A stretch of 64,000 nucleotides of DNA from Microbacterium proteolyticum. Its GTDB lineage: Bacteria > Actinomycetota > Actinomycetes > Actinomycetales > Microbacteriaceae. The stretch spans positions 2,604,001-2,668,000 of the forward strand of contig NZ_JAUSZZ010000001.1 of the NCBI RefSeq assembly GCF_030818075.1. Direction: 5' to 3'. The notes beneath the pieces were generated by a model. It had not been told where the DNA came from. It did no database searches and saw only the letters and a list, made by a program, of their open reading frames with translations. Below, piece after piece: positions 44,627 to 47,250 of the stretch; position 1 is the stretch's first letter, and each line of letters opens with the position of its first letter. Position numbers and translations under genes: made by a program.

Positions 44627-45115
44627 TCAGCGCGCCTCGTCGGCGATTTCTCGCGCGTATCCCGTCACCGACCGGGTATAGCGGGGAAGGTGCGGGGCGA
44701 GGGTTTGCAGGGCGATGGATGCCGCCCGCCCGGGCTCCCCGTTCGACACCAGCGCGAGGGCGTAGAAGGCCGCCGCCGCGTCGTGCAGCGGGCCGCGGGG
44801 CTCGCGCTCGTACTCCGCGCGCAGCAGCGCGAGGGCCTCGTCGGTCTTGCCGAGGTTGCGGATCGTGCTCGCGAGCTGAATGGTCGCCTGAGTGCGTCGA
44901 TCGTCGTCGAGGCCGCGCGCGAGCGCGCGTCGGTAGATCGGCTCCGCCTCCTCTTCGAGCCCCGCGGAGTCCCGGGCACCCGCACGCTCGAACAGCGCGA
45001 CCGCGTCATCCGCCGGCCGCTCTTCGGCCAGCGCGTCGATCCGCGCGATGACCTCGGCCGGGTCGAGGCCGTCGTCGGCCCACACGGCATCCACTCTTTC
45101 CTGCCAGTCGCTCAT
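44627..45115 (-). CDS. Tetratricopeptide-repeat protein
   Basis: 162-residue all-helical protein. Helix pairs PAEVIARIDALAEERPADDAVALFERAGARDSAG, EEEAEPIYRRALARGLDDDRRTQATIQLASTIRNLG and TDEALALLRAEYEREPRGPLHDAAAAFYALALVSNG read as TPR-type repeats. It is probably a scaffold; the partner is unknown. The GGGAGAGGGA site precedes ATG 45115. It lies between tig and clpP1 on the same strand, a position that suggests but does not prove a link to protein quality control. Confidence 0.85.
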   Translation of the reverse strand: MSDWQERVDAVWADDGLDPAEVIARIDALAEERPADDAVALFERAGARDSAGLEEEAEPIYRRALARGLDDDRRTQATIQLASTIRNLGKTDEALALLRAEYEREPRGPLHDAAAAFYALALVSNGEPGRAASIALQTLAPHLPRYTRSVTGYAREIADEAR

Positions 45116-45195: not shown

Positions 45196-45686
45196 TGACT
45201 TGCGCCTTATGCACGCGCGAAGCCCCGCCGCACGGACATTCGGCGCAAGTCACCGGCCCCCTTTCGCCGGCACACCCGCGCACCCCGCTGACTTGCGGCA
45301 TGTGTACACCAAAAGCGCCTCCGCGCGTGCATAAGGCGCAAGTCACCATGTCGGCGCCACCCACGCCTCCGCGCCACCGCCACGCGGGCAGCACCGACTC
45401 CCGTGCACCTCGGTGACTTGCGCCTTATGCACGCGCGAAGCCCCGCCGCACGGACATTCGGCGCAAGTCACCGGACCGGAGGCGCCGGCACCCCCGCACC
45501 CCGCTGACTTGCGCCTTATGCACGCGCGAGGCCCCGCCAGACGTACATTCGGCGCAAGTCACCGTGTCGGCGCCACCCACGCCTCCGCGCCACCGCCACG
45601 CGGGCGGCAGCGACACCCGTGCACCCCGCTGACTTGCGCCATATGCGCGCGTGAAGCCCCGCCGCACGGACATTCGGCGCAAGTCA
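45196..45686. repeat. Higher-order array of five 57-bp palindromic units
   Basis: Units at 45196-45252, 45289-45345 (inverted), 45414-45470, 45505-45561 and 45630-45686 are each 57 bp. They are bounded by TGACTTGCGCC and GGCGCAAGTCA, an 11-bp inverted repeat. Spacers alternate: about 35 bp (containing GCCGGCACMCCCGC) and 68 bp (containing GTCGGCGCCACCCACGCC), so units plus spacers repeat with a period of about 217 bp. The 45116-45750 interval holds no gene. The short reading frames found in it are translations of the repeats. Confidence 0.92.
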
Positions 45687-45750
45687 CCGTCTCGGAGGCG
45701 CCGACACCGCCAGCTGAGCGACGACCGCCGACAGCAGAACCAGGGACGAC

Positions 45751-45784
45751 GAAGGGGGCGGATGCCGTAGCATCCGCCCCCTTC
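45751..45784 (-). terminator. Terminator of tig
   Basis: Perfect 15-bp stem (GAAGGGGGCGGATGC / GCATCCGCCCCCTTC) with a CGTA loop, nine bases past the tig stop. The stem contains GGATGC in both orientations. Confidence 0.88.
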
Positions 45785-45792
45785 TTCACGAC

Positions 45793-47250
45793 TTACTCGC
45801 TGTCGGCGGCCTTCTTCTTGGCCGGCGCGCGCTTCTTGGCGGGGGCCTTCTTGGGGGCCTCCTCGGCGGGCGCCTCTTTAGCCTCGATGACGGCGTCGGC
45901 GTCAGCCGCGGCATCCGCGATCTCCTGCGCCTCTTCGACGACCTCGTCCTCGGCGTCGGTGGGCTCCTCGCCCTCGACGGCGACGAAGCCGGTCAGGTCG
46001 ACGGGCTTACCGTTGGTGTCGACGACGGTGACCTTGCCGAGCGCGATGGCGAGGGCCTTGTTGCGGGCGACCTCACCGACGAGCTGAGGCAGCTGGTTGC
46101 CCTGCTGCAGCGCGTTCACGAAGTCCTGCGGCGCCATGTTGTACTGCGCGGCCGACTGGATGAGGTACTGGGTCAGCTCGTCCTGCGACACCTGCACGTT
46201 GGCGTCTTCGGCGATCTTGTCGAGCACCATCTGCGTGCGGAACTGCTTCTCGCTCGCCTCGGTCACCTCGGCGCGGTGCTCGTCGTCTTCGAGGCGGTTC
46301 TCGCCCTCGAGGTGGTTGTGCACCTCGTCCTCGATGAGCTGCGGCGGGACGGGGATCTCGACGGCCTCGAGCAGCGCCTCGATGAACTTGTCACGCGCGG
46401 CGGCGCCCTGCGTGAACACCGACTGCTGCGAGACGCGCTCGCTCAGCGATTCGCGCAGCTCGGCGATGGTGTCGAACTCGGATGCCATCTGGGCGAAGTC
46501 GTCGTCGGCGTCGGGCAGCTCGCGCTCCTTGACCGCCTTGATGGTGACCGACACCTCTGCCTCTTCGCCGGCGTGGTCGCCGCCGACGAGCTTGGAGCGG
46601 AAGGTGGTGTCCTCGTCGGCGGTGAGCGACTCGATCGCTTCGTCGATGCCCTCGAGCAGTTCGCCCGAACCAATCTCGTACGACACGCCCTCGGCGCGGT
46701 CGATCTCGTTGCCGTCGATGGTGGCGACGAGGTCGAGCTCGACGAAGTCACCGGTCTTGGCGGGGCGGTCGACGGTCACCAGGGTGCCGAAGCGCGCGCG
46801 CAGGCGGTCGAGCTCGGCGTCGATGCCGGCTTCGTCGGCCTCGACGGCATCCACGGTCACGGTGATGGTGTCGTACGCGGGGAGGTCGAACTCGGGACGC
46901 ACGTCGACCTCGACGTCGACGACCAGGTCGCCGGAGAAGTCCTTCAGCTCGGGCAGCTCGACGATCTCGGCGCTCGGACGGCCGATGACGCGGAGCTCCT
47001 GGGCCTCGACGGCCTCGCGGTAGAACCCGTCGAGACCCTCGTTGACGGCGTGCTCGATGACAGCGCCGCGACCCATGCGCTGGTCGATGATGGGAGCCGG
47101 CACCTTGCCCTTGCGGAAGCCGGGGATCTGGACGTCCTTTGCGATGTGCTCGTAGGCGTGGGCGATGCTCGGCTTGAGCTCGTCGGGCGAGACCGTGATG
47201 TGGAGCTTCACCCGGGTCGGGCTGAGCTTCTCGACGGTGCTGTTGACCAT
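45793..47250 (-). CDS. tig: Trigger factor
   Basis: Ribosome-associated folding chaperone, 485 residues. The ribosome-docking signature GFRKGKVP lies at about 44-51. An FKBP-like peptidyl-prolyl isomerase domain (about 155-240, [12 protein letters not shown] and [17 protein letters not shown]) and a helical C-terminal domain follow. A Lys/Ala-rich tail ([19 protein letters not shown]) extends past the usual end, as in other actinobacterial trigger factors. ATG 47250 has GAGGAG about ten bases upstream. It is upstream of clpP1-clpP2-clpX on the same strand, the usual quality-control neighbourhood, but separated by its own terminator and a repeat array. Confidence 0.96.

Follow-up and report, generated by a model that had tools for sequence, protein, structure and literature searches.

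The window analysed here is a stretch of 64,000 nucleotides from Microbacterium proteolyticum (contig NZ_JAUSZZ010000001.1, positions 2,604,001 to 2,668,000). Between a gene that we take, following the first-pass annotation, to be tig (trigger factor) and a gene for a protein of 162 amino acids, it contains an array of five palindromic units. These are probably scattered copies of the palindromic element cognate to a PF18741/DUF559-type nuclease that is encoded elsewhere in the genome. Coordinates of units and tig refer to the window, and those of nucleases to the contig of the M. proteolyticum genome, termed G000. The locus comprises the following features.

45196..45252, no strand: unit 1, 57-bp palindromic element of family 1 (from its sequence and the single-strand DNA fold z)
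45289..45345, no strand: unit 2, 57 bp, with TGACTTGCGGC at the left end and a right half that is inverted with respect to unit 1
45414..45470, no strand: unit 3, 57 bp, identical to unit 1 (57/57)
45505..45561, no strand: unit 4, 57 bp, 53/57 to unit 1
45630..45686, no strand: unit 5, 57 bp, 54/57 to unit 1
45273..45704, plus strand: higher-order tandem duplication, 2 x 216 bp, 86% identical
45748..45787, minus strand: GC-rich hairpin on the 3' side of tig, intrinsic-terminator-like (by eye)
45793..47250, minus strand: tig, trigger factor (open reading frame (ORF) and gene call)
44627..45115, minus strand: 162-amino-acid gene past the array, marker for the orthologous site in relatives (gene call)

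The first-pass annotation had described five 57-bp units with spacers alternating between about 35 and 68 bp and a period of about 217 bp. All five were found at 45196-45686, with spacers of 36, 68, 34 and 68 bp and start-to-start distances of 216-218 bp, each 216-bp repeat consisting of two units and their spacers. Nine of the ten expected 11-bp ends are exact (TGACTTGCGCC or GGCGCAAGTCA), the left end of unit 2 being the exception. The inversion claimed for this unit holds for its right 27 bp, where complementarity to the left end of unit 1 is 96%, but is ambiguous for the unit as a whole (42/57 matches to unit 1 in either direction). The array had been placed before tig, which is true in plus-strand coordinates; as both neighbouring genes are on the minus strand, it lies 3' of tig and its hairpin, and 5' of the 162-amino-acid gene. 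The spacers are duplicated together with the units, as had been noted, unlike the unique spacers of clustered regularly interspaced short palindromic repeats (CRISPR; no search for cas genes was made). Folded as single-stranded DNA, unit 1 gave z scores of −3.9 and −4.0, one per strand.

A genome-wide search for the 11-bp ends, proposed in the first-pass annotation, gave 88 occurrences in G000 (3.77 Mb) against 2 for the reversed pattern, and the 57-bp pattern (20 fixed bases, up to 2 mismatches) gave 108 matches against 0, so a chance origin is excluded. Absence of copies from every other genome would have left a local duplication; copies were found genome-wide and in relatives. Scanning on the 57-bp frame located 86 units in 23 clusters, in the window and 20 other stretches, and an earlier scan permitting lengths of 30-89 bp returned 57 bp for every unit detected. 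Twenty of the 23 clusters are intergenic (10 between convergent genes, 2 between divergent genes) and three lie within predicted ORFs. The consensus, drawn up by eye, reads TGACTTGCGCC-nn-ATG-nn-CGC, followed by some 15 unconstrained bases and the same sequence in reverse complement. Counted by mismatches from 0 to 5, units numbered 52, 24, 8, 1, 1 and 1, beyond which they merge with background; given this steep drop, few decayed units exist in the stretches read.

Separate observations concern the sequence and setting of individual units. At position 17, one half tends to T and the other to C (alike in 3/21 in G000, versus 43% expected), an asymmetry absent in G044. It would give each unit a polarity and, on folding, a T-G pair; Vsr is known for acting on T-G mismatches. 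Units lie inside an S-adenosylhomocysteinase-like frame at L013 (G000:788430-790145) and a xanthine-dehydrogenase-like frame at L011 (G000:500906-503938); the repeats there have periods of 93 and 84 bp, each divisible by three.

Comparison between arrays separates conserved ends from free centres. Outer ends are 0.89-0.92 identical between arrays within G000, G058 and G044, and family-2 ends (see below) 0.93-0.94 in two genomes, values inflated by the detection of units through their ends. Centres are barely above shuffled sequence (0.42 versus 0.38, G000). Within arrays, units are far more alike, centres included (0.86). The earlier suggestion that units are amplified along with their flanks is borne out by a pair of orthologous loci (L047 and L018): the flanks are nearly identical, but Microbacterium sp. 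SORGH_AS_1204 has a single unit between them and G000 has the unit together with a 26-bp spacer repeated five times. Arrays grow by tandem duplication.

Family 1 is present in 10 of 98 genomes, all of them Microbacterium and G000 included, and in none of 39 outside the genus. Copy numbers reach 66 in G058 (M. enclense NIO-1002), 59 in G044, 15 in G007 and 6 in G028, with 1-2 copies in each of five further carriers.

In G000, three nuclease paralogues adjoin three different palindromes.

G000:C1:3371387-3372337, minus strand: partner nuclease of family 1, 316 amino acids, PF18741/DUF559 type (profile match, flanking palindromes)
G000:1589434-1590384: family-2 paralogous nuclease (flanking palindromes)
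G000:3564751-3565710: third nuclease, L191 (flanking palindromes)

A family-1 unit overlaps the stop codon of the partner nuclease (P0001), the TGA of the gene being also the opening TGA of the unit; one degenerate unit and three good ones are found upstream. The protein matches PF18741 (E 2.8e-7, 30.9 bits) and DUF559 (17.2 bits) below the cut-offs of 38.2 and 20.6, its protein database entry lists PF18741, and paralogue L192 exceeds the DUF559 cut-off (22.2 bits). Its fold matches 3r3p and 1cw0 (Vsr-type fold) and the active-site columns are conserved. NCBIfam had no name for any of four nucleases, and PADLOC returned a weak AbiEi for one own paralogue, a marginal ZorE for another and nothing for the third.

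Palindromes and nuclease occur together across genomes. Among 149 genomes, the closest homologues are in G058 (77%), G007 (73%), G044 (62%), G028 (53%) and G052 (54%), all family-1 carriers, including the four relatives with the highest copy numbers; G007 differs from SORGH_AS_1204, whose nuclease is 95% identical. Ranked by nuclease homology, the top five of 58 relatives are all among the 9 family-1 carriers (p 2.7e-5, shared ancestry included). PF18741 as a whole occurs in 58 of 59 genomes and is therefore informative only at the level of the subfamily. TGACTT palindromes adjoin the partner nuclease gene in those five genomes and in G176, G140 and G104, on both sides in some and with one side seen in others (G058, G044). 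In G152, G051, G125 and G049 it lies beside drifted palindromes such as TCACTTGCGCTGAACGTACG.

Family 2 repeats this pattern. It occurs in 19 of 149 genomes, with up to 63 copies and none for the reversed control, and the ten best of 148 relatives by family-2 nuclease all carry it (18 carriers, p 4e-11). At the 3' end of the G000 gene stand two 58-bp family-2 palindromes, and the stop codon comes from one of them. At 15 of the 17 top loci, our own included, the palindrome flanks the gene left and right, in two of them in the GAGAGTCC form. Copies beside nuclease genes are often 58 bp long, not 57. At L191, three 76-bp palindromes have GAACTCCGGAG ends; two of them lie upstream, and the third overlaps the ORF at its 3' end. 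A family-2-like palindrome is seen downstream of L191.

Pairing was compared between 70 nuclease loci (not drawn at random: the 30 best matches, 38 further listed matches and two paralogues of G000) and 43 ordinary genes. Palindromes were present on both sides at 16/70 nuclease loci versus 1/43 controls, and on any side at 45/70 versus 15/43. A 16-mer or longer was common to both flanks at 23/66 nuclease loci (four had too short a flank), 0/43 controls and 16/400 permuted flanks. A strong palindrome (score at least 13) within 250 bp of the stop codon was found in 39 of 97 rows versus 1/43 controls, the 39 being counted by eye and three loci appearing twice among the 97; at score 9, the counts were 71/97 and 16/43. 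The TGA of the element is the stop codon of the gene in 12 of 29 family-1 and family-2 loci with a readable stop.

The palindrome also changes with the enzyme: its sequence shifts with the nuclease clade, left and right copies together. In the first set, half-sites left and right of one gene were 0.79 identical versus 0.63 for different loci (n=9, p=0.0009; including L130 and L133, which lacked a convincing palindrome on one side). In family 2 the values were 0.89 and 0.78 (n=15, p<5e-5; 15 of the top 17 loci, omitting L283, with palindromes on one side, and L296, at a contig end).

Beyond Microbacterium, an order-wide search mostly returned long multidomain PF18741 proteins; 20 matches with short open frames were then hand-picked. 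In 11 of these 20 small genes both flanks have a 16-mer or longer in common, compared with 4/300 permuted pairs. In another bacterial genus, a 55-bp palindrome with half-sites 36 bp apart recurs in G067, with a variant in G085, and adjoins the nuclease in G067 and G192. Searched for in eight genomes, it gave no match in four and one in G234.

How could an enzyme maintain such copies? The nuclease would act as a dimer bound at the half-sites. An AbiEi-like N-terminal part would read the outer ~11 bp of each half-site, and inner contacts ATGnnCG. Two Vsr/EDxHD nuclease domains would then face each other over the unconserved centre of ~15 bp, an arrangement that would account for the rigid 57-bp length. 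The suggestion in the first-pass annotation that a dimeric protein binds the units fits this model, with binding as a prediction. Nicking or cutting might occur near the centre, possibly restricted to a special DNA form, for instance an extruded hairpin. Repair could expand arrays by tandem duplication, homogenise the copies, and create or preserve others at intergenic sites that tolerate them. By analogy, the system may work like a pair of repetitive extragenic palindromic (REP) sequences and TnpA-REP, with an unrelated enzyme.

Several observations weigh against this proposal. No palindrome was found at 25 of the 70 nuclease loci at the thresholds used, 15 of the 43 control genes had one, and the co-occurrence of nuclease and palindromes partly reflects shared ancestry. 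Family-2 copies and enzyme do not always coincide. G010 and G012 have one copy each without a close intact nuclease, and G053 has 36 copies with a truncated nuclease match (G053:C65:26475-27165). The best match contains an in-frame stop in G102 (C11:279421), G109 (C1:2538012) and G143 (C135:89). G112 (8 copies) and G123 (one copy) have a best homologue (44%) that lies beside a palindrome other than family 2, GTCCCACTT in the case of G112. G050, G179, G136 and G018 have good homologues and no match to the family-2 pattern. Foldseek gave no match to the nuclease at E<=0.001, the AbiEi structural match has a root-mean-square deviation of 4.0, and AbiEi was matched in sequence only by L191, weakly. 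A nuclease cutting ordinary duplex at more than 100 intact host sites would be expected to kill the cell; the substrate must therefore be special or the activity tightly controlled. Finally, the centres of dispersed copies are near random, and no recent copy-and-paste is therefore seen outside arrays.

Two side observations touch on these genomes. Variant palindromes flank the nuclease genes of G050, G179, G136 and G018. The genomes with a broken family-2 nuclease (G053, G109, G143, G102) still carry 10-36 palindromes, and in them the elements may outlive the enzyme.

An unlikely alternative is that the elements are regulatory sites only: the AbiEi-like part would autoregulate by binding the palindromes next to its own gene, dispersed copies would be regulatory or decoy sites spread by other means, and the nuclease would not act on them. 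The promoters of AbiEi and Rv2827c contain inverted repeats to which these proteins themselves bind (PMC7319586), and at many loci palindromes are close to the gene on both sides. Against such a role, the 3' end of the nuclease gene regularly has an element too, down to the shared stop codons; convergent gene pairs far outnumber divergent ones among the intergenic clusters; and the active site is conserved. Still less probable, at under one chance in ten, is a homing-type passenger nuclease that settled among pre-existing palindromes with another function and another binding protein. Its attraction is that the fold is that of the homing endonuclease I-Bth0305I. It does not explain why the palindrome changes with the nuclease clade, left and right copies together, or why three paralogues in one genome adjoin three different palindromes. 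Moreover, seven of 30 nuclease loci (L127, L128, L129, L131, L133, L134 and L135) share one gene neighbourhood, judged by the lengths and order of the genes, and there the gene looks vertical rather than invading. Palindromes lie on both sides of the gene, and no homing event was seen. Carriage by phage or plasmid was dropped: no phage record matches the nuclease, the five matching plasmid records are all below 60% identity, and viral contigs contain no exact match of the 57-bp pattern.

The first-pass annotation had also raised structured RNAs and a REP-associated transposase. RNA hairpins or bidirectional terminators selected at gene 3' ends would suit the stable folds of the units (z −3.4 to −5.7 for five of six strands, −1.6 for the sixth) and the preference for convergent pairs (10/20 versus 23/94, p 0.025, arrays kept in the background). 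However, in three of four genome sets (G000, G058, G044) the halves of a unit match each other no better than shuffled pairs, that is, halves of different units, and this lack of covariation disfavours a base-paired RNA. In the fourth set, 10 units of G028, G052 and G049, columns 8-14 exceed shuffles (p=0.002) and columns 8-28 do not. Positions 12-13 and 17-18 are often unpaired, orienting units by their G-rich centre gave no clear gain in pairing, and Rfam returned only microRNA models, far under gathering scores. Some units lie between divergent genes or within ORFs, and the pairing with the nuclease is left unexplained. We regard this explanation as very improbable. Mobilisation as REP/REPIN elements by RAYT (TnpA-REP) we discount almost entirely, despite a similar outward form, namely extragenic palindromes, arrays, an inverted unit and an enzyme gene bracketed by repeats (PMC8266576). 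A profile search for Y1_Tnp (PF01797) found none in G000 or the nine other family-1 carriers; among 59 Microbacterium genomes only G041, which has no units, was positive. GTAG lies within 8 bp of 0/86 units and CGTC of 5/86, below the random expectation of 0.12 per unit.

The likeness to REP systems is thus one of behaviour. In REP/TnpA-REP pairs, palindromes and arrays are many and extragenic, the enzyme gene lies in immediate proximity, is mostly single-copy without evidence of mobility, and co-evolves with the palindrome (PMC8266576, PMC3116915). The present system has in common with such REPtrons the many extragenic palindromes, the adjacent enzyme gene and the co-evolution. It differs in having a Vsr/EDxHD-type nuclease with an AbiEi-like part instead of a Y1 HUH transposase, no GTAG tag, and a near-fixed unit length per family (57 or 58 bp, and 55 bp in another bacterial family). 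Because the defining enzyme and tag fail, we do not file it as a REPtron (PMC8266576). Judged on sequence, the unit geometry would fit the long pseudo-palindromic target of a dimeric EDxHD homing endonuclease. Unlike I-Bth0305I, the nuclease is encoded on the chromosome of a genome that also has many intact palindromes, its other part is AbiEi-like, and no phage record matches. Unlike in the AbiEi/Rv2827c antitoxins, that part is fused to a nuclease. The C-terminal domain matches both DUF559 and MTES_1575_REase (PF18741), the latter described as a novel Vsr REase (PMC3710099); its founding protein is long and multidomain, whereas the partner nucleases are small.

The tig site itself was surveyed by eye at 15 loci (L080-L094). 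Family 1 occupies three, another palindrome eight and neither four; the eight are mostly TGAGTGTCC...GGACACTCA-like (family 2), 57 bp where measured. In relatives the palindromes are placed just past the terminator-like hairpin of tig, and the intergenic site between tig and the 162-amino-acid gene appears as if it were a preferred landing place. A tandem repeat of a different kind, around CTCGCTGAGAGCGACCGC, lies between the tig stop codon and the hairpin at L084 (G044).

Taken as a whole, the results point to an undescribed kind of repeat system with REP/RAYT-like behaviour and an unrelated enzyme. Among the top-ranked matches in open-licence PMC literature, no paper ties DUF559/PF18741 nucleases to palindromes, which is not proof of absence. 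More tentatively, with somewhat less than an even chance of being right, small PF18741/DUF559 nucleases and their palindromes would be ancient, actinobacteria-wide, self-maintaining enzyme-repeat pairs, several independent ones per genome. The dimer would recognise and cut its own palindromes of ~55-58 bp and thereby amplify and homogenise them; these would spread into intergenic sites and change their sequence together with the enzyme. Such pairs would be the REPtron equivalent driven by a nuclease. Within the literature found, extragenic palindromes with a dedicated enzyme have so far been known for Y1 transposases; a second, unrelated enzyme class that outwardly behaves alike would mean that enzyme-palindrome pairing has more than one origin. 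Many genes whose annotation reads just 'DUF559' or 'endonuclease domain-containing' would gain a predicted DNA target from their own flanks, and it would become possible to test natural pairs of an enzyme and a long specific site. The system allows one to ask how a DNA-binding domain and more than 100 dispersed sites change together.
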